DNA of 64,000 nucleotides, taken from contig SCRN01000040.1 in assembly GCA_004322045.1 (NCBI GenBank), forward strand, positions 434,001 to 498,000, written 5' to 3'. The notes beneath the pieces were generated by a model. That model ran no database searches. It had not been told where the DNA came from and saw nothing but the letters and a program-made list of their open reading frames with translations. The position numbers and the translations under genes are program-made. Origin of the DNA: Paraburkholderia sp. (lineage in GTDB: Bacteria > Pseudomonadota > Gammaproteobacteria > Burkholderiales > Burkholderiaceae). Every line of letters starts with the position of its first letter. Position 1 is the stretch's first letter. Below are positions 33,905 through 45,033 of the stretch, in pieces.

Positions 33905-34336
33905 ATGGTGGGCCTGTGTCGCGAGAGCATTATCTGCGGCACAGTCCCTTCCGCGCTGACGATGAAGCTCGCTGTCAATCTGTACGTCATCACGATGGTC
34001 ACCGGCCTGGCGGAAGCCGCTCACTTCGCCCAGCGCCACGGCATGGATCTCGCGCAATTTACCAGCGTACTGAATAACGGCCAGATGGCCAGCGATATTT
34101 CGCGCGTGAAACTGGATAAGCTCACGACGCAGGACTTCACTGTGCAAGCCGCCATCACCGACGTGCTGAAAAACAGCCGTCTGGTAGCAGAGTCTGCGAG
34201 AAGCGCCGGTCTCGCCTCGCCTTTGCTTGACGTCTGCCACACACTTTATGGTGAAACCGAGGCCTTGGAGCATGGTTCATTGGACATGGCGGCGGTCATC
34301 CGTGCGATTGAGCAGCGAACCGAAACGGTGCGATAG
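33905..34336 (+). pseudogene. 3' part of a 3-hydroxyisobutyrate dehydrogenase-family gene
   Basis: The C-terminal NAD_binding_11 domain of the beta-hydroxyacid dehydrogenase family is intact: MKLAVNLYVITMVTGLAEAAHFAQRHGMDL with the catalytic-lysine-type K in MKLAVN, then ISRVKLDKLTTQDFTVQAAITDVLKNSRLVAESARSAGLASPLLDV. The N-terminal NAD-binding Rossmann domain is missing and its place is taken by the IS66 scrap. The match begins near 33940. The product cannot be a working dehydrogenase. Confidence 0.82.
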
Positions 34337-34736
34337 CCATTCTCGATCAATTGCGTTGGCGATTCCCGCACTGAGCGCGCGGCCTTTGGCTGCCGGCGCC
34401 TTGCCGGTCCGTTTCACGACGGCAGCTTTCGTTTGAGTGGGCTTAGGCACAACAATCTCCGAAGCACTTAAAAAGGAATTTCAACAGCCCCCTCTACTCC
34501 CACTCGATTGTCAATCCAGTGGCTAGTGCCTTGCGGGGACGGCGTCTCTACCGGGTCACGCTGCGTCAATACCGCCAGCGATACCGAATGCCATGCCCAG
34601 CAGTTGGCTGCCGTTGTTGGACTGCACTGGAGGATCAATGCTCGCTTTGTTGAAAACATCGAAGACATCCGTGTCGCCGGGCAATTGGGGGTGACCCGTT
34701 TCCGTGGAGAATGCGTCATTGGCGAGACCATCACCG
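34337..34736. other. Integration debris with first guaA-like att copy
   Basis: No well-supported gene. A GTG-started 57-codon frame (34450-34277, minus) with GGAG upstream and a Lys/Ala/Pro-rich product (PKPTQTKAAVVKRTGK) overlaps the dehydrogenase remnant and is doubtful. To the right of the att copy, 34515-34660 resembles 37470-37610 (shared TTGCGGGGACG, GATACCG, and a degenerate CACTGGAGGATCA block). This suggests both are the same kind of island end. Confidence 0.5.
34494..34512 (-). repeat. guaA 3'-end att-like repeat, copy 1
   Basis: CTACTCCCACTCGATTGTC matches the end of guaA at 45015-45033 with three differences. Read on the minus strand it encodes L-T-I-E-W-E followed by TAG. The differences are at synonymous or stop positions, as expected for an attachment site derived from another guaA. 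Confidence 0.8.
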
Positions 34737-35168
34737 TCAATGAGAGATCTGTTCAGAGGTGGGACCAAATTGGACTGGATGACCGTGGGTATCGAACGGA
34801 ATAAACATCCCGACAGAACCAGTCTTGATCGATTCCACCATCCTGTTCAACGCCGCTTCGGCATCCTCAGTTCGCGGCACACACCCGTTTTTACCCGAGA
34901 GTGCCGCGACGAAGACGATTGCCCATTCCTGGAGCATCTGTCGTGATTCCGCGACCAGATCGCTAAACGTACCAAGTTCCTCAGGTGTTTTGTCCACGCA
35001 CATCAGTGGCGTCAACGCGCCACCCTGACCCGCTTCGAAGCGGGTCAGTTGGTCTGGCGTGCAATCATCGGGCAACTCAACTGAGGTAAATACGAATAGC
35101 AGACGCTGTGGCTCCGGTTGTTGCCGTGCGAGGCGAAGAAGTTCATCAAAACTCGAAATACTTATCAT
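34737..35168 (-). CDS. Hypothetical protein of the type annotated 'ribonucleotide reductase subunit alpha' in Burkholderia
   Basis: The 143-aa soluble protein starts MISISSFDELLRLARQQPEPQRLLFVF and contains ELPDDCTPDQLTRFEAGQGGALTPLMCVDKTPEEL, AIVFVAALSGKNG and LNRMVESIKTGSVGMFIPFD. From memory, proteins with this pattern are widespread in Burkholderiales and carry a misleading 'ribonucleotide reductase alpha' name; they lack the domains of that enzyme. Function unknown. It sits in the first island stretch, with lower GC than the core genes. An upstream extension to 35327 is not supported. Confidence 0.65.
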   Translation of the reverse strand: MISISSFDELLRLARQQPEPQRLLFVFTSVELPDDCTPDQLTRFEAGQGGALTPLMCVDKTPEELGTFSDLVAESRQMLQEWAIVFVAALSGKNGCVPRTEDAEAALNRMVESIKTGSVGMFIPFDTHGHPVQFGPTSEQISH

Positions 35169-35871
35169 CAATCGTCCGTGTGGTGTCGTGAAGGCAAGGC
35201 AGTACGTCGGCTGTGGAATCCGACACATAATCCGCTCGTCCTGCCTGGGGGAATTTAGCCGCCCACAAGTGGATGAGTTTGAACTGCCCATCGGAGAACA
35301 TGGAGGGAAACTGGCCGGTCTCGTCAATGTGATGTGATTTGCTCTGGCGGCTTATATGTCCACTATACCCTGAGAACTCTAACACCTCCCCGGAGTCGAT
35401 CCATTCTCCATGACTGCTCCCTTCTACGAAGCCGGCGCGCCTCACCTCCATGGAGGCGTTGGCACCTCATCGCGCCACGACCAGTGGTGAACGGCCGCAA
35501 GGGAGGGAGTCGACTGTCCGCGTCGGGTTGCGGATTCAACCGGCGGATGCAATAGGTTTCTCGAATCGTTCGGCCGCTTCTTGGGGTGGAGCCGACGTCT
35601 CAATGTCCGGGCGTCGCCTCGGGCGAATGATACTTCCTGGCCGATCCCGGAAATCCTGGCAAGGTCGACGCCCCCGACGACGACGCGTCACACGTGATCA
35701 ACCTATGCGGGGATCAGCTGATCTGCGCCGCGGATACCTGTCGCGTTTGAAAGGTCGGACCAGGCTCTACCGTCCCACAGGCGATTTTTCGCGTTACTCC
35801 GTGACCGCCAGCAGCAAACTGTGATATCCACACCCATTACGGCTCCAATCGCGCCTGTGGAGGAATCAAAG
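35169..35871. other. 703-bp degraded stretch with one gene-tail remnant
   Basis: No intact gene. On the plus strand, 35631-35750 is an open frame reading DPGNPGKVDAPDDDASHVIN and then LCGDQLICAADTCRV before TGA; it looks like the Cys-containing C-terminus of a lost protein, family not recognised. A minus-strand frame at 35146-35451 is judged spurious. The right end carries the ribosome site GGAGG of the next gene. Confidence 0.45.
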
Positions 35872-36420
35872 ATGACATGCGTTGCGCAGTGGGTCCCGGA
35901 AGAGGGTGTGGGCGCCGAGCATCTGGTGTTGAACGAATGGCCGGATCGCGTGATCGGCGAGGCGGTGGTCGTCGGCACGCGCTTCGGCTCGCCGTATGGA
36001 GCGCACTACCGGGTTGACATGGCGCCCGACTGGACGGTGCGCCGCGTACTGGTCGCGCTTACCGACGGGCGCACACTGGTCGTATCGGCTGACGGCAACG
36101 GCCATTGGCACGACATTGACGGCAAGCCACTGGCGGCGCTCGACGGCTGCATCGACGTCGACATTTCGGCCACACCATTCACGAATACCCTGCCAATCCG
36201 CCGGCTCGGGCTGATGAAGGGCGAGCGGCGCGAAATCCGCGTCGCCTATCTGGCGCTGCCGGCGTTGACGGTCGAGCCTGCCGATCAGGCGTACACGTGC
36301 GTCGAGCCGCGGCGGCGCTATCTGTACGAGGGGCTGTTCCGGCAATTTAAGGCGGAGCTGGCGATCGATACAAATTGGCTGGTCGAAGACTATCCGACGC
36401 TGTTCAAACGGATCGCGTAG
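35872..36420 (+). CDS. Putative glycolipid-binding domain protein (DUF1089 family)
   Basis: The 182-aa protein matches the putative glycolipid-binding family (PF06475): EHLVLNEWPDRVIGEAVVVGTRFGSPYGAHYRVDMAPDWTVRRV, LVVSADGNGHWHDIDGKPLAALDGCIDVDISATPFTNTLPIRRLGL and a C-terminal YLYEGLFRQFKAELAIDTNWLVEDYPTLFKRIA. The name comes from structural-genomics inference; biological role unknown. ATG 35872 has GGAGG nine bases upstream, better than the GTG at 35821. It is the most intact gene of the first island stretch. Confidence 0.82.
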   Translation: MTCVAQWVPEEGVGAEHLVLNEWPDRVIGEAVVVGTRFGSPYGAHYRVDMAPDWTVRRVLVALTDGRTLVVSADGNGHWHDIDGKPLAALDGCIDVDISATPFTNTLPIRRLGLMKGERREIRVAYLALPALTVEPADQAYTCVEPRRRYLYEGLFRQFKAELAIDTNWLVEDYPTLFKRIA

Positions 36421-36700
36421 TCCGCGCGGCACTCGCCGCGCGCCAGCAACTCCGTCGAAGTCTGCGTCGGCTATTCCCACTTCGGTACTCAGCAACCAGT
36501 CCTCTGGTTCCGGGGTTGCGCTCTTGGGGCGCATTAACGCGCAAGATCCGGAGGCATGCCAACGAGTGAATGCCTACGAGCGACTCTCGCGACATGCCGC
36601 GACGAGCCACCAGAGCACCGCTGTTGTCGCTCGTCGACCCGGAAGGGACCTTCGAAATACCCAGCAACGGCCATTCAATGATCTGCGCTGGCAACGCTGG

Positions 36701-36919
36701 CTAATTACCTACGTCGCTGGAAATCCACGCTCTAACCACGACGTTGACAGTGGCCACTACAGTTTCCCAATCATCAGGATCGAGTCCGTGCGCATCAATC
36801 CCGTCAAGCAATTGGGCAGCTAGTTCTTTCGAGCGCTCGGTCGACGTGTGAAAACGCTCTTGGATTAGCGTTGCCGTCCTCTGCAACGTACCGTGGCTGT
36901 AACGCGCATTCATTGGCAT
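36701..36919 (-). CDS. Small hypothetical protein, 72 aa
   Basis: Open frame with a sensible product: a helical, acidic segment TLIQERFHTSTERSKELAAQLLDGIDAHGLDPDDWETVVATVNVVVRAWI. In-frame ATGs are at 36919 and 36913 without a clear ribosome site. No family is recognised. It is surrounded by non-coding island debris (36421-36700 shows nothing), so it may be an island passenger or a remnant. Confidence 0.35.
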   Translation of the reverse strand: MPMNARYSHGTLQRTATLIQERFHTSTERSKELAAQLLDGIDAHGLDPDDWETVVATVNVVVRAWISSDVGN

Positions 36920-37339
36920 TCGCCCATTCGGTTGGTTTTAGTCGAGGCGTGTTGTAATTCTCGCGCCGGAGACCGATTGTCAATGAATTGAAGGAGGCTG
37001 TCGAATGTCCGAACCTGGCCGATTTCTGCCCCATGCCAAAAGACGACTCGAACGCGGGATGCGGCGCAATGCGATCGCCGAACGAGAAGTCCCCATCGCA
37101 CAGCAATTCCGGCTACCCGCTAGTTGACGTCCTGACCGAGCTCCCGAGCGCCGCTGCAACTTCCGCCTCCCTAAGTCATCCCGAAGAGACCAAGCGCCTT
37201 TCTCACCGCTCGCCGATACCATCGACGTCGCTGACGGTATCAAGCGAGTCTCTACGCATGCCGCCCATCGATACCGTCAGAAATACCGTCAAACTGCGGC
37301 GACTCCGGACTTTATGCAAGCACCGAAACAGGGCTATAA

Positions 37340-37357
37340 CTTCCATACAATCAATGA
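37340..37357 (+). repeat. 18-bp direct repeat, copy B
   Basis: Exact copy of 33723-33740, same orientation, 3,617 bp apart. The bases before also agree loosely (TATAC / TATAA). It may be a duplication made when the intervening accessory segment was inserted. Confidence 0.6.
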
Positions 37358-37449
37358 CTTACGGACCCACGTCGTGCAATTTAGAATCGGAGGCACGTAA
37401 TTTATTGATCACCGTAAGCCATTGATTCAAAAGAGAATTTAAAAAATAC

Positions 37450-37468
37450 TCACTCCCACTCGATTGTC
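37450..37468 (-). repeat. guaA 3'-end att-like repeat, copy 2
   Basis: TCACTCCCACTCGATTGTC; minus-strand reading encodes L-T-I-E-W-E then TGA. It shares 17 bases exactly with copy 1 and differs from native guaA at synonymous/stop positions. It divides the island into a 2.9-kb and a 7.5-kb stretch. Confidence 0.8.
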
Positions 37469-37882
37469 AACCCGGTGCTTACATCCTTGCGGGGACGCGG
37501 CTCTGGCCAGCGCGTGTGTCGACGATACCGTCACCGATACCGAAAAACCTAGTCGGCAGTTAACGGCTGTCGATAGACTGCATCGGAGATTCAACCCGTG
37601 CTTTCGTCGATGGATCAGGAACACTACGCATTTGAGGGCGATTTCTCCAAGGATATCGTCATCGATACCGTCAGACACCTTCCAAGGTAATCCTGGCAGA
37701 GCTTGCTGAAGCCATGATTTCAACCCCGGCAACGATCCCTGGCAGACTTCATTCGCTCCAGAGCTAGACGCACGCGTCGTCATGGAGTTCAGCACCGTGA
37801 ACGATAGGCCTTCCTTATAAACTATCGGGGAACCCCACAGTCAAGTGGTACGTATGGCTTACGAAAGAAGGAACATGACTTC

Positions 37883-38068
37883 GTGCTGATCAGCAAGCTT
37901 GCAACGTTATCGGGCCTGTCCAAGGACGGCATCCGTCATTATGAAGAATTGGGGCTTATCCGATCGACTGCGCGACAGGCGGGAAGCCGCACTTACCGGG
38001 AATATGACACCGATGCCCTGGCTGCGATTGCTGAAGGGGCGGCGCGACCGATAAGTTCGGGCCGATAA
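37883..38068 (+). pseudogene. MerR-family regulator, N-terminal fragment
   Basis: GTG-started frame of 61 codons. LISKLATLSGLSKDGIRHYEELGLI and SRTYREYDTDALAAI are the first helix-turn-helix and wing of MerR proteins. The sequence then leaves the family (EGAARPISSGR) and stops, with no dimerisation helix or effector domain. GAAGGAAC lies 10-17 bases upstream. Probably a truncated gene facing the 3' end of the cyclase gene; a DNA-binding stub is possible but unlikely. Confidence 0.7.
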
Positions 38069-38085
38069 AAGACAACGTATTGCGG

Positions 38086-38841
38086 TTACGGCACAATCGC
38101 AAAAACACGCGCCGGAAATCCGGAACCACGCTTCGGCTTTGGCCACGTTGCGACGATAAGCGCCCCCACCTCGGGTACTGCGTCGAGGTTGGCCAGCAGC
38201 TCAATCTGCCATCGATCCTGATCGAGCACATAGCGTTCGAGCGAACCATCGCCACGACTGATCGCGAGGCCGCCGTCGGTATCCAGCGTCTCATGTCCGC
38301 AGGCCGTAGCGCCGCGTACCTCGAAGATATAGCGTAGCGCTTCGAGCGTCCAGCCGGGGAAATGCGCCACGCCCTCCGGGTCGCGATTCGATATCTTCTC
38401 GCGATCCGGCCAGCGCGACGACCAACCGCTGTGCTTAGCGACGAATGACCCGTGCGGCATCGGACCGTGACGCGTTTCCCAATGCAGTATGTCGTTGGTC
38501 GTCAAGCAATAGTCCGCATTGGCGGCCACCTGCTCGCGGATGTCGATGACGACAAGCGGCAGAATCATTTCGCTCACCGGGATCTCGTCGAGAAACCTGC
38601 GGCCTGCCACGAAGTGCACGCCCGGATCGACGTGCGTACCCCACTGGCCAACGAAGCTGTAGCGATGCGCAAGGAACCCCTGCCCCATCGCGCCGCGCGC
38701 AGGCGCGTGATCGTACAAGACCGTACGCGTCTCGGGCTCGAAGAACGGCGAATGCGGAATCGACGCGTCGAACGCATGGGTCAGGTCCACGAACCGGCAC
38801 TCATGCAACTGCCCCAGGAGTGCCCAGAGGTCGAGCGCCAT
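38086..38841 (-). CDS. Cyclase-family metal hydrolase (kynurenine formamidase-like fold)
   Basis: The 251-aa protein of the cyclase family (PF04199) has CRFVDLTHAFDASIPHSPFF at the start and the metal motif in SFVGQWGTHVDPGVHF, with Gln where the family consensus HxGTHxDxxxH has its first His; then LPLVVIDIREQVAANADYCLT and SFVAKHSGWSSRWPD. Such enzymes hydrolyse amides, lactones or related bonds. Last gene of the island operon, 5 bp after the cupin. Start ATG 38841. The substrate is unknown; the operon suggests a sugar-acid or amide precursor. Confidence 0.85.
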   Translation of the reverse strand: MALDLWALLGQLHECRFVDLTHAFDASIPHSPFFEPETRTVLYDHAPARGAMGQGFLAHRYSFVGQWGTHVDPGVHFVAGRRFLDEIPVSEMILPLVVIDIREQVAANADYCLTTNDILHWETRHGPMPHGSFVAKHSGWSSRWPDREKISNRDPEGVAHFPGWTLEALRYIFEVRGATACGHETLDTDGGLAISRGDGSLERYVLDQDRWQIELLANLDAVPEVGALIVATWPKPKRGSGFPARVFAIVP

Positions 38842-38846
38842 ACGGT

Positions 38847-39224
38847 TCAGATGCGCTCGAGGTTCGTGCGCGTGCGCTCGTTGACGACATTGCCGGTATT
38901 GACCGTCGTCTTCGGCTCGAGCAGCAGGCAATGCACTTCGGCCGTCACGGCTTCCGGGCAGTGCTCGGTACCCTTCGGCACGATAAGGTATTCACCCTCC
39001 TCGATCAGGACATCGCCGCCATTCTCGGCCCGCAGCTTCATGCGCAGCGTGCCCTTCACCACGAAGAACAGCTCGTCTTCGTGATCGTGATGATGCCAGT
39101 TGAACGTACCGCTGAACTTGGCGAACTTGATCTGCGAATCATTGATGTCGCCACCGATCTTGGGCGACCAGTATTCGCTGACGGCCGAGAATGCTGCCGT
39201 GACATTAACCTTGTTGAGCTTCAT
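38847..39224 (-). CDS. Cupin-domain protein
   Basis: The 125-aa single-domain cupin shows motif 1 FNWHHHDHEDELFFVVKGTLRMKL (His cluster and Glu, the metal site) and motif 2 LIEEGEYLIVPKGTEHCPEA with the second His. Cytoplasmic; could act as an isomerase, dioxygenase or lyase. It overlaps the TIM-barrel gene by 4 bp (ATGA) and precedes the cyclase by 5 bp, so it is firmly embedded in the operon. Reaction unknown. Confidence 0.88.
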   Translation of the reverse strand: MKLNKVNVTAAFSAVSEYWSPKIGGDINDSQIKFAKFSGTFNWHHHDHEDELFFVVKGTLRMKLRAENGGDVLIEEGEYLIVPKGTEHCPEAVTAEVHCLLLEPKTTVNTGNVVNERTRTNLERI

Positions 39225-39901
39225 GCCGTCACTCCTTCGATCTGGAAAATGGTGTCGATCTGCGTCGGCAGCAGACGCTTGACGAACGTACCCTGAAACA
39301 ACGCGCTGCCGACTGTGAAACCCCAGGTCCTAGCATCGATCATAGCCTTGACGCGCACCTCGCCGTCGATACTGCCGGCTGCAATGACGGGGACCTGCAC
39401 GGCTTCCGTGACGCGCCGCGTCAGTTCGGCCGGATCGCCTTCGCCCGCGAAGCGGTAGGCGAGCAGATCGAGCCCATGTATGCCAGGCATGGCCGCAATG
39501 CGACGCGCGTCCTCCACTATCTCGTCCATCGTACCTTCTAGTACCGTCGGGTGCCCGATCGTGCGACCAGCAAACGGGAAATACTGGACCGAAGAGCCGC
39601 GCAGCATGGCAAGCGCGTCTTCGACGTGGCGACCGCCGAGCAGATAGTCGACGCCAATATCGAGCGCGGCCTGAATCGATTCAAGTTCGCTTTCGCGGCT
39701 CGTCGCGACGACCTCGAGCATGACCTTGCGGCCGTCGGCCCGGATGCGTTGAGCCAGTTGCTTGAGCGAGGCGACCGGCAGACCGATATCCTTGAAGCCG
39801 ACATAGTGAACGGGGCCGTCGCGCAGGCTGTCGTAGACCGCTAACGCATCGGGAACCGTAGCGTCGTTCTCCGTCAGCATCAGAATGAAATGGGAGGACA
39901 C
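39221..39901 (-). CDS. Phosphate-binding TIM-barrel protein of unknown reaction
   Basis: A 226-aa alpha/beta barrel. The C-terminal VPVIAAGSIDGEVRVKAMIDARTWGFTVGSALFQG contains two Gly-rich phosphate-binding strands of the kind in HisA/TrpC/ThiE barrels; the early part has VHYVGFKDIGLPVASLKQLAQRI, with KDIG on beta-2, and VMLEVVATSRESELESIQAALDIGVDYLLGG. The phosphate site fits a phosphorylated intermediate from the kinase and PdxA2 upstream. A decarboxylase, aldolase or isomerase is possible. No named family could be assigned with confidence. Confidence 0.72.
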   Translation of the reverse strand: MSSHFILMLTENDATVPDALAVYDSLRDGPVHYVGFKDIGLPVASLKQLAQRIRADGRKVMLEVVATSRESELESIQAALDIGVDYLLGGRHVEDALAMLRGSSVQYFPFAGRTIGHPTVLEGTMDEIVEDARRIAAMPGIHGLDLLAYRFAGEGDPAELTRRVTEAVQVPVIAAGSIDGEVRVKAMIDARTWGFTVGSALFQGTFVKRLLPTQIDTIFQIEGVTA

Positions 39902-39928
39902 GTTAGACTCCTTGAGTATATGGGTGAC

Positions 39929-40930
39929 TCACGCCCGGGAACGGGTGAATTGATGGGCTGTTTGAAGTGCGACTTGCAGACTGGCGGGGTCTGCAATACC
40001 CTTGCCAGCGATATCGAACGCCGTACCGTGATCCGGACTCGTCCGCACGAAAGGCAGGCCGACGGTAATGTTCACGCCGTCTTCGACGCCGGCAAGCTTG
40101 ACCGGAATAAGCCCCTGGTCGTGGTACTGCGCCACCACAATGTCGAAGCGGCCACGGCGTGCGTTCATGAACACGGTGTCGCCGGGCCACGGACCACTAG
40201 CATCGATGCCTTCCGCCCGGGCACGCTGGATGGCCGGCGCGACGATGTCGAGGTCTTCCCGACCAAACAGCCCTCCCTCGCCGGCATGAGGATTCAGACC
40301 CGCCACGGCCACGCGCGGATTCTCGATGCCAAGTTCTTTCATCGCACGATGGGCGAGTCGGACAACGCGCAGTTCGCCCTCGACGGACAGCTTAGCGATC
40401 GCGTCACGCATTGAGCAGTGAACCGTCACAAGAATCGTGCGTAACGTAGGGTTCACGAGCATCATCGCGTAGTCTCGCGTGTCGGAAAGATCCGCGAGCA
40501 TCTCCGTGTGGCCCGGATAAGGCACGTGGGCAGCAGCAAGCGCCTCCTTGTGAATCGGAGCGGTGCAGATGCCTGCGATCTCGTGCTTCATCGCCAGATC
40601 AATCGCGGTACTGATCGCGCCAAATGCCGCTTCGCCAGCCAGCGCGCTGATTGCACCAATCGGCAAATCGGCAGGCAACGGCTCGGCACCCGGCACGCGC
40701 AGCACGTCGAGCGTGCCCGGGCGTGGTGCGATATCCGAAACCGTATCCGTCTCGCGGATCTCGAGTGGCAAATTGAGCGCGGCGGCCGCACGCCGCAGCA
40801 CGCCGGCATCGCCGATGGCGAACGACGGATAGTCGGCGATAAACAAGGCGTTCGAGAATGTCTTGACGACGATTTCCGGCCCGATGCCGGCCGCGTCACC
40901 CATCGTCACGGCGATCAGTTTCTGTTTCAT
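39929..40930 (-). CDS. pdxA2: PdxA2-type 4-phosphate dehydrogenase (D-threonate 4-phosphate dehydrogenase-like)
   Basis: The 333-aa PdxA-family NAD-dependent oxidative decarboxylase has MGDAAGIGPEIVVK, the metal/substrate histidines in YPGHTEMLADL and VTVHCSMRDA, GLNPHAGEGGLFG and YHDQGLIPVKL, all family motifs. PdxA2 enzymes paired with DUF1537 kinases oxidise D-threonate (or a stereoisomer) 4-phosphate, giving dihydroxyacetone phosphate and CO2. The kinase gene overlaps its start by 4 bp, strongly supporting this over vitamin B6 synthesis. Confidence 0.93.
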   Translation of the reverse strand: MKQKLIAVTMGDAAGIGPEIVVKTFSNALFIADYPSFAIGDAGVLRRAAAALNLPLEIRETDTVSDIAPRPGTLDVLRVPGAEPLPADLPIGAISALAGEAAFGAISTAIDLAMKHEIAGICTAPIHKEALAAAHVPYPGHTEMLADLSDTRDYAMMLVNPTLRTILVTVHCSMRDAIAKLSVEGELRVVRLAHRAMKELGIENPRVAVAGLNPHAGEGGLFGREDLDIVAPAIQRARAEGIDASGPWPGDTVFMNARRGRFDIVVAQYHDQGLIPVKLAGVEDGVNITVGLPFVRTSPDHGTAFDIAGKGIADPASLQVALQTAHQFTRSRA

Positions 40931-42018
40931 GGTTTTACTCCAGTCAATACGTCGAGACAGGTCAGTAGCGCGTCGTCGTCGCCAAAGCCACCGGCCTTCG
41001 TGATCATCGGGAAGCTACCTTTCGAAGTGCGGACCTCGAAAAGCGGCACCCCCGGCAGGATTTCTCGATGGACGTGCAACGACACGCCAGGCAGTGCGTC
41101 GACGATGCGTCTGGCGGTCTCGCCGCCTGTGACGACAAGGCCGTCACATGCACCGCTGGCTATGAGGTTGGTGACCTGCATCACCAGGTCACGCAGTGCC
41201 GCTTCCGTTAAAGCTTCGTCAAGCAGGCGATCGCTGCCGGTAGCCAGCACGTTGATCCGGCAGTTCTCGCGTGCCACGTCTAACTGGCGACGCGACCTCG
41301 GATTGAGGCTGCCCACAACGAGCCAAGGAGCACGACAGGACAAGGCCGCTGGTTGGGGAGCCGGGTCAGGCTGCGACAACGCGCGAGCAAGCGCGCGCAG
41401 CAACCCCGTGGAACCAGCCAGCACCAGATCTCTCGAACCGGCGAACAGACCCACCAGTGCGTCGAGATCATCCTCAGTACGCGCATCCATGACGACAGCA
41501 TCATGCTCTTCGAGCAGGACTTTCGCGTGCGTTGCATCTTGTGCGACGGCGACCTGCACACCCTGCGCGAGAAACAACACGGGTACGCTCGATTCACGTA
41601 CCGGCAACGTAGGATCGCCACCGAATGCTGTTTCATGCACAGGAACACCATCGACAAGCACACAGCCAGCCTCGGTCGTCCGCCCACCCGCAGGAAAGGC
41701 CGGCGCGATCAGCAACTTACGACGACCGGACGCGGTAAGGACACTCATGCAATCGTTGGCGACGCGCCCTCGCAAAGTCGAGTCGAACTGCAGGACGAGG
41801 ATGTCAGCATCGCCCCAGGCACGCGCAGCACCCGCCACCCGTTCGCCAGTCACGGCATGCTCGCGTGTATCCGTGTCGAGGCTTACTACGGCTATTGCCG
41901 CGACATTCGTGGCATCTTCCGGTCGAAGCAGCGCAGCCGTATCCCAGCCGCGCTCGGCAAAACAGGCAGTGCCGTCAAGTGCACTCGTGAAGTCGTCAGT
42001 GATGATGCGAATACGCAT
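40927..42018 (-). CDS. Four-carbon acid sugar kinase (DUF1537, DtnK/OtnK-like)
   Basis: The 363-aa ATP-dependent kinase of the DUF1537 family has the N-terminal sugar-acid site RIITDDFTSALDGTACFAERGW, then LQFDSTLRG (the K/R-STLRG-like block), and a C-terminal nucleotide domain with SLNPRSRRQ, ACDGLVVTGGETARRIVDAL and ITKAGGFGDDDALL. Shorter than most members (about 400-430 aa). It should phosphorylate a C4 aldonate (threonate/erythronate type) for PdxA2, with which it overlaps by ATGA. First gene of the operon; start ATG 42018. Confidence 0.9.
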   Translation of the reverse strand: MRIRIITDDFTSALDGTACFAERGWDTAALLRPEDATNVAAIAVVSLDTDTREHAVTGERVAGAARAWGDADILVLQFDSTLRGRVANDCMSVLTASGRRKLLIAPAFPAGGRTTEAGCVLVDGVPVHETAFGGDPTLPVRESSVPVLFLAQGVQVAVAQDATHAKVLLEEHDAVVMDARTEDDLDALVGLFAGSRDLVLAGSTGLLRALARALSQPDPAPQPAALSCRAPWLVVGSLNPRSRRQLDVARENCRINVLATGSDRLLDEALTEAALRDLVMQVTNLIASGACDGLVVTGGETARRIVDALPGVSLHVHREILPGVPLFEVRTSKGSFPMITKAGGFGDDDALLTCLDVLTGVKP

Positions 42019-42035
42019 GGAAGGTCCGCGCTGTC

Positions 42036-42083
42036 TTTGGTTCTTGAATTTTGACGTTTTTCGTGTATTTTTTAAGAACCAAA
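42036..42083. promoter_or_regulatory. Inverted repeat TTTGGTTCTT...AAGAACCAAA in the mocR/kinase divergent promoter
   Basis: Exact 10-bp arms at 42036-42045 and 42074-42083 around a 28-bp AT-rich spacer; arm centres are 38 bp apart. Within it, TTGACG (42051-42056) is a candidate -35 box for mocR, and the right arm overlaps its -10 region. Likely operator of the MocR regulator, controlling both directions. Confidence 0.7.
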
Positions 42084-42105
42084 AAAATGGAATTTCATCG
42101 CGTCT

Positions 42106-43575
42106 ATGGTTCGCCCAGCCGTATCGAAACAATCCCATCCTGCTTTGGTCGACCTTGAGATCGACCGGTATGCAAGCGGACCGGTGTTCCGTCAAATCAT
42201 CAGACAATTACGTGAGCGGATCGACAATGCGGTCCTGCCATGCGGAACTCGCCTTCCACCGACACGCGACCTAGCGCAGCAACTGGGTATCGCGCGTAAT
42301 TGCGTGGTAGAGGCCTATGACGAATTGATTGCCGATGGCGCCTTGGAAGGACGCGGCCGAAGTGGGACCTTCGTGGCCGCAAGCAGAGCATTTGCCGCTC
42401 CTCGTCGAGAAGCCATCATCCGGCAATCGTCTGTTTTGCGACGTATCGATAATGAGAACAGCGATGCGCCGCCGCAACCGGTCGCCGCATTCGACTGGCG
42501 ACTTGGGCAGGTCAATGTGCGGGCACTGCCGTTGGAGGCATGGCGCAACGCATGCCGTGAAGCCGGGCGGCATCTTCCACCGGCAGGATATGGCGACCCA
42601 CGCGGAGAATCAGGATTACGCCATGCCATTGCGCACTGGCTGCATGAACATCGTTCAGTGTCGGTCGATCCCAATCAGATTGTTGTTACCCACGGAACTG
42701 GGCAAGCACTGCATCTCGTATCCCGCACATTCTTGCGCGATGGCGACATGTGTGCGGTCGAAGACCCTGGATATTTGGGGGCCAACTGGGCATTCGCGCG
42801 CGCAGGAGCGACGCTGCACCACGTGCCCGTCGATGACGAAGGAGTGTTGGTTGAACGGATCATTGATTCGCTGACAACTCCAGCGTTGATACACGTGACG
42901 CCAGCGCACCAATACCCGCTTGGCGGTCGTCTGTCCGGACCGCGGCGTCGTTCGCTCATTGACCTCGCTCGCACACACGGGACAATGATTGTCGAGAACG
43001 AGTACGACTGCGAATTCCATTACGCAGGCACGCGCTATCCGCCGTTGTTTGCGAGCGCACCGGAAAATACGCTACTCCTGAGCACGTTTGCGAAAGCAGT
43101 CAGCCCCTCCCTGCGGCTCGGCTTTATTGCGGCACCTAGGGCTGCAGCAACCGCCCTGGCCGCACACATCGAACGCGAACGTGTCCATGTCTCCTGGCCG
43201 GTCCAGAAAATTATCGAGACCCTGTTGGTCTCAGGAGAGCTCGACAAGCATCTGCGCAGAGTACGACGCCACTATGGCGCGATGCGCGACTTGGTCCGCA
43301 GACGCTTGGCCGACTACTTCGGCGAAATCGACTTGAGAGGCGATGAAGGGGGGTTGCACGTTGTTGTGGCCGGCCGTGAGCGGGCATTTGATCTCGAATT
43401 GCGAAAGGCCTTGAATTCACGCGGCATCGTCTTCAACGAAGTGCGGGAATTTGCAAGTTCGACTATGGAAGAGTCGAATGGCTTTTTGCTTGGATACGCG
43501 CATATGGATCTGAGCGATCTGTCGGCTGCGCTGGATGAATTGACCACTTGCATCCAGCGATGTTATTCACGTTAG
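42106..43575 (+). CDS. MocR/PdxR-type transcriptional regulator (GntR HTH fused to aminotransferase fold)
   Basis: The 489-aa protein combines an N-terminal GntR winged helix (FRQIIRQLRERIDNAVLPCGTRLPPTRDLAQQLGIARNCVVEAYDEL, about residues 28-74) and a fold type I aminotransferase domain. The PLP lysine is K330 in LLSTFAKAVSPSLRLGF; the VTPAHQYPLGGRLS and NEYDCEFHYAG blocks are typical of MocR. Divergent from the kinase-pdxA2 operon by 87 bp. MocR proteins often respond to PLP plus an amino compound, so the inducer may carry an amino group. Confidence 0.93.
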   Translation: MVRPAVSKQSHPALVDLEIDRYASGPVFRQIIRQLRERIDNAVLPCGTRLPPTRDLAQQLGIARNCVVEAYDELIADGALEGRGRSGTFVAASRAFAAPRREAIIRQSSVLRRIDNENSDAPPQPVAAFDWRLGQVNVRALPLEAWRNACREAGRHLPPAGYGDPRGESGLRHAIAHWLHEHRSVSVDPNQIVVTHGTGQALHLVSRTFLRDGDMCAVEDPGYLGANWAFARAGATLHHVPVDDEGVLVERIIDSLTTPALIHVTPAHQYPLGGRLSGPRRRSLIDLARTHGTMIVENEYDCEFHYAGTRYPPLFASAPENTLLLSTFAKAVSPSLRLGFIAAPRAAATALAAHIERERVHVSWPVQKIIETLLVSGELDKHLRRVRRHYGAMRDLVRRRLADYFGEIDLRGDEGGLHVVVAGRERAFDLELRKALNSRGIVFNEVREFASSTMEESNGFLLGYAHMDLSDLSAALDELTTCIQRCYSR

Positions 43576-43773
43576 GCATGCACAGCATGCGCGAACTAGC
43601 TTGGTCGAGTAGAAAATTCCTCCGCGGGTCCCGCGAATGCCGTCCCTCGTATTGGGAAAACGTGGGAGCAAAGTCCGCCCCAATCGGCATATGGGGTATG
43701 TGTCGAGATGCTCGGAAGACCGCGAAGCAAATCAAAAAATTATCGATTGAATTTGTCTCTTCAAGCTTCCGTT

Positions 43774-44792
43774 CTAGAGCACTTTTGACATGGATGCCTT
43801 AGCAGTGCTATCAGATTCAGGGTTCTTCACTATCCCCCCCTCAAGCATATCTGCCCAAGTCTGTAGCATCGCTCTTCGCTGCTCGGCATATTCAGCCTTG
43901 TTGTATACCGCGCGTCCCCCACGACAAGACGTTGTGCGCACGCCCTGCCTTCATGCGGTCTTTCGGGATGGTCCAGACCGCCGAATTAAAATCCACCTCG
44001 CTCCAGTTGAGCGAGAATAAATTCTGACTTGCGCACCATTATAAGCAACATGAACTTGATGGCCAGACGCAATGTTGGCAAGGTCGCTGTGCGCTCCAAT
44101 CCTTTGAAAAACACGTGAATCTCCCCGGGTGTCAGTGCCCGGTCCCGCGGCTTGAAGGTAGCAATAGCGGAAGGCCGTATGTCTTCTGCAGGATTGGCTA
44201 CCTTCAGCCCTCTTGCCTGCACGAAACGGTAGACCTGTAGGACGATGTCGCGCGCCTGAACGGAGGGCGCGGCCGCACCCCGCTCCTTGATCTTCTCGCA
44301 CCTCGTTAGGAGTCTTGAAGGTGTGATCTCTTCGAGCTTCAGTCGCCCGAACTCCGCTGCAAGATTCCGGTCGTAAACGGATTTCCTCATCGCGCGGGTC
44401 GATTCCGCGAGCGTGGCTTCCGCGTAGTATTTTTCGGCCCACTTCCCGAACGTCATCGCTTCGGCCGCTTCTACACGCTTTTCAACCTTGTTTCTCGACG
44501 GACTGACGCCGTGTTCCACTTCCCGACGAGCCCGCTCAAGGAGCAGCCTTGCTTCCGCAAGACGCAGCGACATGCCAAAGGAAAGTTCGTCAGCAGCGCG
44601 TGCGCCGCGTGCTGGTAGCCCGGGATCGTAGCGGCCTATGACCAAGGTCTCCCGGCGCCCATTCAGACGATAGTCGAAGCGGAAACTCACCGCTCCGGAC
44701 GGGGTAACCGCCACATACAGGCCACGCTGGTCAGCAACCTTGTATATCCTGCCGGTGGGCTTGAGCGCCCGCAATTCGAGGTCCGTAAGCAT
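43774..44792 (-). pseudogene. Tyrosine recombinase (P4-type, guaA-targeting) with frameshift and internal deletion
   Basis: Starts intact: MLTDLELRALKPTGRIYKVADQRGLYVAV with the DUF4102 arm-binding domain and the SAM-like core-binding domain, and ribosome site CACGGAG. Near 44010 a one-base shift breaks the frame (VRKSEFILAQ, then continuing as WSEVDFNSAVWTIPKDRMKAGRAHNV in another frame, to about 43926). The next residues jump to the protein's tail, RAVYNKAEYAEQRRAMLQTWADMLEG, ending at TAG 43776-43774. The section with the catalytic HxxR and Tyr is deleted, so no active integrase. The stretch 43576-43773 to its left shows nothing else. Confidence 0.88.
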
Positions 44793-44818
44793 GCAATACT
44801 CCGTGAACTGATACCGTG

Positions 44819-44851
44819 TTTGATACCGTCACGCGCCGTGACGGTATCAAA
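44819..44851. repeat. 15-bp perfect inverted repeat with GATACCGTC motifs upstream of the integrase
   Basis: TTTGATACCGTCACG (44819-44833), spacer CGC, then its exact complement (44837-44851). A further GATACCGTG lies at 44810-44817. It is 27-59 bp upstream of the integrase ATG, between integrase and guaA, where arm-type binding sites or an integrase operator would be expected. Confidence 0.7.
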
Positions 44852-44984
44852 ATGGATAGTCTGCAGAGAAAGATGCCATCCCGTCGCTCATGCCGTCGGC
44901 GACGCGGCGCTGCCGACGGACGGCAGCGGACCAAAATAGTCGATAAACCCTTGTTTTTGTGTGGGAAACCAAGGAGTCGACGGA

Positions 44985-45006
44985 CCTCTGCAGACCACTG
45001 CAGAGG
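44985..45006 (-). terminator. Hairpin 8 bp after guaA
   Basis: Perfect 9-bp stem CCTCTGCAG / CTGCAGAGG with ACCA loop, immediately downstream of the guaA stop on the minus strand. No T run follows. It could be a weak terminator or part of the attachment site. Confidence 0.45.
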
Positions 45007-45014
45007 ATCCTAAA

Positions 45015-45033
45015 TTACTCCCACTCAATCGTC
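45015..45033 (-). repeat. Native guaA 3' end, attachment-site copy 3
   Basis: TTACTCCCACTCAATCGTC encodes the final A-T-I-E-W-E and stop of guaA. Two diverged copies lie at 34494 and 37450. Accessory DNA with an integrase relic abuts it on the left, so this is where the island integrated. Confidence 0.85.

Follow-up and report, generated by a model that had tools for sequence, protein, structure and literature searches.

The window analyzed here is a stretch of 64,000 nucleotides from a Paraburkholderia sp. contig (SCRN01000040.1). It carries a compact unit of five minus-strand genes with a divergent regulatory gene, close to a truncated integrase gene and att-like repeats. The features of the locus are the following:

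42106..43575, plus strand: mocR, MocR-type regulator gene (GntR HTH and aminotransferase-like domain according to Pfam), divergent from the kinase gene
42039..42081, no strand: inverted repeat GGTTCTT...AAGAACC between mocR and the kinase gene, probable MocR operator
40927..42018, minus strand: DUF1537 family acid kinase (PF07005, 1e-29; PF17042, 4e-18)
39929..40930, minus strand: pdxA2, PdxA2-type dehydrogenase/decarboxylase (PF04166, 2e-105)
39221..39901, minus strand: predicted HisA-like phosphate-binding TIM barrel of an unnamed family, GTG start, below Pfam/NCBIfam cut-offs
38847..39224, minus strand: small Cupin_2 protein (PF07883, 1e-11)
38086..38841, minus strand: PF04199 "cyclase", isatin-hydrolase-like amidohydrolase, ATG start (PF04199, 5e-33)
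43986..44792, minus strand: truncated tyrosine integrase (Arm-DNA-bind_3, Phage_int_M, weak SAM-like domain)
37452..37497, no strand: att-like repeat similar to the 3' end of guaA, marking the far border of the putative inner island; second copy at 34496-34541

The initial annotation had described five packed minus-strand genes facing a MocR gene, and both the open reading frames and their spacings bear this out. The kinase and pdxA2 genes overlap by 4 bp, as do the barrel and cupin genes, with a gap of 27 bp between pdxA2 and the barrel and of 5 bp between the cupin and the cyclase. The kinase starts with the ATG at 42018, making the longer listed TTG frame unnecessary. As also proposed initially, no transporter was found among the genes scanned in the inner island (approximately 37.45-45.0 kb).

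The unit is island-borne, as the same annotation had held, and lies at a guaA site, as is supported by guaA-like repeats, a truncated integrase and a drop in GC content. The two 46-nt repeats, at 34496 and 37452, are 85% identical to each other and match the guaA 3' end at 15 of the 17 bases of 45017-45033 (compared by eye). In 2-kb blocks, GC content is 0.56-0.62 between 34 and 46 kb vs. 0.60-0.67 elsewhere in the window. Genomic islands at the guaA site are a known kind of element, and this one shares with them the insertion at the guaA 3' end, the att-like repeats of that end and an integrase adjoining guaA. Unlike them, it is very small, its integrase is truncated (268 aa, without catalytic domain according to Pfam) and apparently two elements lie in tandem. 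The two repeat copies suggest this tandem arrangement, with the operon alone in the inner element, at about 37.45-45.0 kb.

The same gene order was then found in other genomes, as the initial annotation had advised checking. All six genes occur in identical order in three of the eight relatives found in genome contigs (L002, L003, and L007), and mocR-kinase-pdxA2-barrel is kept in seven of them. Because of this recurrence, the six-gene unit is not a chance assembly. No relatives were found in viral contigs. MocR is 61-82% identical in seven relatives, and the inverted repeat, with TGGTTC/GAACC arms whose starts are 38 bp apart, is present in seven of the eight aligned mocR-kinase regions, window included; the second arm is off by one base in L009.

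The kinase carries both DUF1537 domains, PF07005 and PF17042, its nearest solved sequence being 4xfm, named "uncharacterized protein." PdxA2 scores 352.7 bits against PF04166 (cut-off 27) and its nearest solved sequences are 4jqp, named 4-hydroxythreonine-4-phosphate dehydrogenase, and then 6e85, a D-threonate 4-phosphate dehydrogenase. MocR reaches 361 bits against NCBIfam PLP_TF_PdxR (cut-off 320), and the nearest solved sequence to the cupin is 3d82. The cyclase (114.8 bits against PF04199) matches the solved structures 8f9x and isatin hydrolase. The PF04199 metal motif is HxGTHxD; all four aligned cyclases read QWGTHVD, i.e., the first His is replaced by Gln.

The barrel had no match above the cut-off in Pfam or NCBIfam. 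HisA models scored below their thresholds (TIGR00007, 16.6 of 229 bits; PRK13585, 23.7 of 243; PF00977, 18.9 of 23.6), and profile similarity to phosphoribosyl isomerase A, an Amadori isomerase of HisA type, covered part of the barrel only (3e-8). The structure prediction recommended initially gave a TIM barrel model (AF2 pLDDT 83, pTM 0.84). Fold similarity is modest: Foldseek gave TM values of 0.53-0.68 and 10-20% identity among the best 50 matches listed, in which NanE was the top fold match and HisA was not singled out. Across 49 barrel sequences, 26 columns are invariant, including D13, K37, D38, E63, Y107, and R150, with H117 nearly so. Judged from profiles and the predicted fold, the protein is a distant HisA/NanE-type phosphate barrel: like HisA and NanE it would be a phosphate-binding TIM barrel, whereas it differs from them by its low identity, its own invariant residues and its operon. 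A PdxJ-like role was considered and dropped, PdxJ giving no match up to an E-value of 0.01 in Pfam/NCBIfam, nor in the profile search. In three records (L011, L014, and L016), the barrel is annotated as "4-hydroxythreonine-4-phosphate dehydrogenase."

Fifty-eight barrel loci were counted, after removal of copies (L001, L090, and L094-L096) and of shorter loci of the same places (L017-L027 and L049-L073). The barrel is fused to PdxA in L041, to a cupin in 11 of the 58 loci and to a methylglyoxal synthase (MGS) in 15. The fused MGS domains match solved MgsA at 1e-27 and display the HD..K motif in 14 of 15 cases and GGDQQ in all 15. These three kinds of partner point to a three-carbon keto-phosphate as the putative ligand of the barrel. 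The initial idea of a C4-C5 acid rearranged by the cupin and the barrel is not supported in that form: the PdxA and MGS fusions suggest that the barrel acts on the C3 keto-phosphate, after PdxA2. The unit of the window has no methylglyoxal synthase, and neither kinase nor PdxA2 was found within 6 kb of the barrel-MGS loci. MgsA acts on DHAP. In 30 of the 58 loci, the barrel occurs without intact PdxA2 and kinase, a number that includes L008, whose kinase and pdxA genes are broken, the fragmentary L032, and L034, where the frame is disrupted. Some of these barrel-only loci adjoin kinases of polyol type, as judged by eye (L087, L092, and L093), or an annotated dihydroxyacetone kinase (L034). Given these barrel-only loci, the kinases near them and the substrate of MgsA, plain triose-phosphate chemistry is possible for the barrel.

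Gene neighborhoods were compared by tblastn with annotated or NCBIfam-named representatives, because our own gene calls miss or mis-start genes; the representatives came from counted loci (L014 and L028 for the amino-acid set, and controls L103 and L105 for the sugar-acid genes). Of the 28 barrel + PdxA2 loci, 16 have one or more of nine threonine/homoserine/racemase/RidA/cyclodeaminase families nearby; several rhizobial loci are near-copies, so that the number of independent cases is far below 16, and L006 and L009 enter the count through RidA only. None of the four sugar-acid genes sought was found near these 28 loci, window included. In ten PdxA2 loci without barrel, hand-picked from 60 listed of 516 records, the proportions were reversed, i.e., 0/10 for the amino-acid set and 10/10 for the sugar-acid genes, although amino-acid genes outside the nine families lie near some of them (e.g., L103, L104, L105, and L107). 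The association is illustrated by L028, where the unit adjoins annotated LtaE, Tdh, Kbl, ThrB, and ThrC, and by the close relatives L004 and L005, which hold ThrB and ThrC, with LtaE in L005. The amino-acid set is not represented near the other 12 of the 28 loci, to which the window and the three other cyclase loci belong. The neighborhoods of many relatives fit an amino-containing substrate, in line with the amino-containing inducer that the initial annotation had proposed from MocR. Its statement that barrel, cupin and cyclase are foreign to the D-threonate and erythronate routes agrees with the ten controls, in which the barrel was absent, no PF04199 cyclase was annotated and an annotated cupin occurred only once (L107), more than 6 kb from pdxA.

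In a first PdxA tree of 38 rows, the barrel-linked PdxAs formed one clade (96/93). The barrel as marker of a single PdxA clade had to be abandoned in a 55-row tree, to which five lone PdxAs and twelve others were added (hand-picked from L122-L142; the partial L037 was omitted), as four changes were obtained rather than one. Likewise, the kinase tree (24 barrel-linked and nine other rows) shows two changes, and the barrel-linked kinases are not one clade. In the 55-row tree, the sugar-acid controls and seven others group together with support (98/89), to the exclusion of the barrel-linked PdxAs. L146 falls inside a barrel-linked group (100/99), as sister to L011 (99/92), and is the sole PdxA of a genome (G371) with one PdxJ. 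Given this nested sole copy, the barrel-linked PdxA type may accept 4-phosphohydroxythreonine. The lone PdxAs L145 and L147, also sole copies, lie at an unresolved base; the genomes of L143 and L144 hold two and three PdxA copies, so that two of the five such genomes have extra copies. A kinase match within 6 kb is lacking in three of the 28 barrel + PdxA2 loci (L011, L041, and L091).

Taken at even odds, the locus is a mobile unit that degrades a beta,gamma-dihydroxy-alpha-amino acid, the likeliest candidate being 4-hydroxy-L-threonine or its lactone or N-acyl form. The cyclase, where present, would unmask the acid, and the DUF1537 kinase would yield 4-phosphohydroxythreonine. Oxidative decarboxylation is known PdxA chemistry; applied to this substrate, which tree and context suggest, it would give 1-amino-propan-2-one 3-phosphate and CO2. 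The barrel, assisted by the cupin, could then shift the carbonyl through an enolisation of reverse-Amadori type toward the imine of glyceraldehyde 3-phosphate, whose hydrolysis would release triose phosphate and ammonia. The divergent MocR would respond to the amino compound, or to an adduct of it with PLP, and act at the conserved inverted repeat. Because the cyclase was found in only four of the 58 barrel loci, it seems dispensable for the core pathway. Passages of two papers report 4-hydroxythreonine kinase activity for some DUF1537 members (PMC7954711; PMC10971088), and PdxA2 is said in part of another to catalyze the PdxA reaction (PMC9997740). These three sources relay, in the same passages, that DUF1537-PdxA2 can act on 4-hydroxythreonine (Thiaville et al., 2016), and our prediction shares this substrate and the first two steps. 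That activity, as relayed there, is promiscuous or serves repair and feeds B6 synthesis, whereas we propose a unit dedicated to catabolism and equipped with an additional enzyme. A literature search, with most subscription papers outside its coverage, found neither a catabolic 4-hydroxythreonine pathway nor the barrel family, and neither barrel nor cyclase was met in any characterized pathway.

Among the closest known systems is that of D-threonate, which is reportedly degraded by a DUF1537 kinase and PdxA2 (DtnK/PdxA2; Zhang et al., 2016). Both families recur here in adjacent genes, and phosphorylation and oxidative decarboxylation presumably proceed in the same way. These families, and 6e85 as second-best solved PdxA match, would be accounted for by an ordinary sugar-acid pathway of D-threonate/tetronate type that ends in DHAP and in which the barrel is an additional isomerase of triose or tetrulose phosphates. 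DHAP-type ligands would also fit the barrel-MGS fusions and the polyol-kinase-like and dihydroxyacetone-kinase neighbors of distant barrels, and work cited in part of one source places DUF1537 kinases in sugar-acid catabolism as well (PMC7954711). However, the unit adds barrel, cupin and cyclase, and with DHAP as the product no further dedicated enzyme would be necessary. Its kinase and PdxA2 stay far below the D-threonate equivalog cut-offs (159.8 of 450 and 331.7 of 583 bits, respectively), its PdxA lies outside the sugar-acid control group, and the neighbors of its relatives are often amino-acid genes and never the sugar-acid genes that all barrel-less controls have. Such a pathway is unlikely.

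Detoxification or salvage, by which harmful 4-hydroxythreonine or 1-amino-propan-2-one 3-phosphate would be removed or fed to B6 synthesis without growth benefit, seems improbable. A passage calling 4-hydroxythreonine toxic and describing its conversion to the PdxA substrate (PMC7954711) would agree with it, as would a MocR above the PdxR cut-off and barrel-MGS loci devoid of nearby kinase and PdxA2. On the other hand, a PdxJ-like barrel is unsupported, and genes for an FAD oxidase (near 15 of the 28 barrel + PdxA2 loci) and for a peptide ABC binding protein (near 11) look catabolic. Finally, as the initial annotation had proposed, the cyclase could open some other C4-C5 acid, either amino-containing or branched (e.g., an N-acyl, lactam or methylated aldonate), on which barrel and cupin would act. 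The resemblance of the cyclase to isatin hydrolase and the M20 deacylases near three of the 28 loci (ArgE-type annotated in L010 and L013) are in line with this, whereas 54 of the 58 barrel loci gave no cyclase match and the fusion of PdxA with the barrel points to a barrel working beside PdxA2; this option is improbable.

A broader and rather doubtful reading is that the undescribed barrel family, on its own or as a fusion with PdxA, a cupin or methylglyoxal synthase, removes the reactive B6 precursor 1-amino-propan-2-one 3-phosphate by deaminating isomerisation. With a DUF1537 kinase and a PdxA, it would constitute a mobile route for breaking down 4-hydroxythreonine and comparable amino acids from plants or microbes, metabolite repair being possible in Rhodobacterales-like genomes. 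Judged from the relatives, the barrel may mark the amino-acid branch of a system described to date for sugar acids, and a first functional proposal is thereby provided for this conserved family. If true, the pairs of "four-carbon acid kinase" and PdxA2, annotated alike in the records compared here, could be sorted by one gene into two branches, one for sugar acids and one for amino acids, and 4-hydroxythreonine, otherwise discussed in the passages cited above for its toxicity and its link to B6 metabolism, would have a natural catabolic role.

The five operon genes lie tightly packed on the minus strand, and the overlaps and gaps described in the initial annotation were reproduced when the open reading frames of the window were read.

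42106-43575, plus strand: mocR, divergent from the five-gene unit
Five packed genes, minus strand: DUF1537 kinase, pdxA2, TIM barrel, cupin and PF04199 cyclase
35821-36420: PF06475 gene, carried by the probable outer island (34.5-37.45 kb)

The same gene set was found elsewhere: among eight relatives, identified by the presence of the barrel in genome contigs, all six genes were kept in three (L002, L003 and L007), and the order mocR-kinase-pdxA2-barrel was retained in seven. In L008 (8209-8921, a Candidimonas relative), a full-length barrel, 78% identical to that of the window, adjoins remnants of the kinase and pdxA genes. Between mocR and the kinase, the arms of an inverted repeat (TGGTTC/GAACC, starts 38 bp apart) are conserved in seven of the eight regions aligned, one of which is the window; the eighth, L009, is one base off. 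The gene cluster is real, and the conservation of gene order and repeat among relatives supports a probable co-regulated unit.

By eye, the repeats at 34496 and 37452 of the window look like the guaA 3′ end at 45015, and because of these three guaA-end-like sites the region 34496-45033 probably comprises two islands in tandem. The integrase frame (268 aa) has arm-binding and core-binding domains and lacks the catalytic domain; no integrase was seen in the outer island. Since neither guaA nor this frame gave a tblastn match in the L002-L009 stretches examined, location at guaA may be a peculiarity of the window's genome. Just outside the outer att-like site, a 143-aa frame (33905-34336) is possibly a relic: its matches to 3-hydroxyisobutyrate/tartronate-semialdehyde/L-threonate dehydrogenase-type models are confined to their C-terminal part. 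A short MerR-like regulator fragment, read by eye, lies just downstream of the cyclase (37884-38069). At E 1e-10, the barrel is rare and patchily distributed. Counting the window's own genome each time, it occurred in 6 of 299 sampled family genomes, 4 of 250 sampled from the order and 12 of 398 from the phylum; in the order of genome G333 it occurred in 21 of 292.

DUF1537 kinases were placed in sugar-acid catabolism by work cited in PMC7954711. Here, 28 loci with barrel and PdxA2 were compared with 10 control PdxA2 loci giving no barrel match, all varying in length from 11.5 to 25 kb. At least one gene of an amino set (LtaE, ThrC, ThrB, Tdh, Kbl, Alr/DSD1, RidA, cyclodeaminase, threonine dehydratase) was present in 16 of the 28 (several rhizobial loci being near-copies, the query sources L014 and L028 being counted, and L006 and L009 scoring through RidA alone) and in none of the controls. 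Conversely, at least one gene of a sugar-acid set (KDG permease, DHDPS-family, Fe-alcohol dehydrogenase, sialidase-like gene) was present in none of the 28 and in all 10 controls, the query sources L103 and L105 being counted. The amino set was absent from all 30 loci having the barrel but no intact PdxA2, and no such gene lay near the four cyclase-bearing loci, window included. The 28 loci also carried FAD oxidases (15) and a peptide ABC binding protein (11), and three (L011, L041 and L091) had no kinase within 6 kb. Some controls carry amino-acid genes beyond the nine families; in L106, an oxidase/aminotransferase group lies past a small transposase-like frame.

In a 38-row PdxA tree, barrel-linked PdxAs formed one clade (96/93). 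The outgroup was the second PdxA of the window's genome, 39% identical to the operon PdxA2; this genome also holds one further DUF1537 kinase. The tree was enlarged with twelve other PdxAs and five lone ones (54-62% identity), each with neither kinase nor barrel in the 20 kb examined around it. The lone genes were interspersed among barrel-linked PdxAs: L146 fell inside a barrel-linked group, beside Gluconobacter L011 (99/92), and L143 and L144 adjoined L041, where barrel and PdxA are joined in a single 603-aa frame. The ten control PdxAs and seven relatives remained separate (98/89). G371 (L146), G297 (L145) and G012 (L147) each hold one PdxA and one PdxJ; as the sole copy alongside PdxJ, this PdxA presumably acts on 4-phosphohydroxythreonine in B6 synthesis. 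G354 and G046 hold two and three PdxA copies. Hence the tree, in which L146 alone of these three sole copies is firmly placed and the base is poorly supported, links the barrel-type PdxA to a putative amino substrate.

The barrel reached the cut-off of no Pfam or NCBIfam model, and a 49-sequence profile aligned only part of the barrel with HisA-type phosphoribosyl isomerase A (3e-8). The structure prediction proposed in the initial annotation, an AlphaFold model built from nine close sequences (pLDDT 83, pTM 0.84), came closest to NanE, with HisA/HisF, OMP decarboxylase, ribulose-phosphate epimerase and further barrels behind it; TM was 0.53-0.68 and identity 10-20% among the best 50 matches. 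Invariant residues include T10, D13, T15, K37, D38, E63, Y107, R150, G176 and G198, H117 being nearly invariant. TIM-barrel active sites sit at the C-terminal ends of strands, and the conserved residues fall in or after these ends in the predicted model. Among 58 barrel loci, 11 encode a fusion of the barrel with a cupin and 15 a fusion with a methylglyoxal synthase domain (L075, 9664-10740, and 14 similar loci from genomes of the order of G333); in these 15, neither kinase nor PdxA2 was seen within 6 kb. Because a phosphorylated three-carbon ketone is both the product of PdxA and the substrate of methylglyoxal synthase, it would be the simplest common ligand for the barrel family. On a Staphylococcus warneri plasmid, L015 (10519-11181) encodes a distant barrel with 31-33% identity; a HAD IIIA-type phosphatase and putP are annotated nearby, and the locus gave no PdxA match. 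Other distant barrels (L092, L093, L097, L098 and L087) lie near genes that by eye look like FGGY/glycerol-type kinases, FAD polyol dehydrogenases or sugar ABC transporters; such polyol/sugar-type neighbours suggest other keto-phosphate roles.

As 4-hydroxy-L-threonine is the 2-amino counterpart of D-threonate, a single kinase/PdxA2 pair can, by analogy, serve both. The products would differ, the sugar acid giving DHAP and 4-hydroxy-L-threonine its amino analogue; a further enzyme would be required for the amino ketone and none for DHAP, which would explain the presence of the barrel. The HisA reaction is an Amadori rearrangement. The barrel would perform the reverse on 1-amino-propan-2-one 3-phosphate, yielding the imine of glyceraldehyde 3-phosphate, which would give triose phosphate and ammonia. 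The cupin, fused to or adjoining the barrel in 14 of the 28 barrel and PdxA2 loci, is for this reason probably a partner in the barrel's step. The cyclase, isatin-hydrolase-like with Gln replacing the first His of the metal motif, would open the substrate where it occurs as a lactone or amide.

The title of a 1988 paper cited in PMC5827301 and PMC6337347 reports hydroxythreonine production by Pseudomonas andropogonis; going by this title, a plant-associated bacterium is a reported source of the compound, separately from the window's operon. Gene context, fusions and phylogeny moderately support an amino-acid branch of the DUF1537-PdxA2 system, with 4-hydroxythreonine as putative substrate and the barrel chemistry as a proposal.
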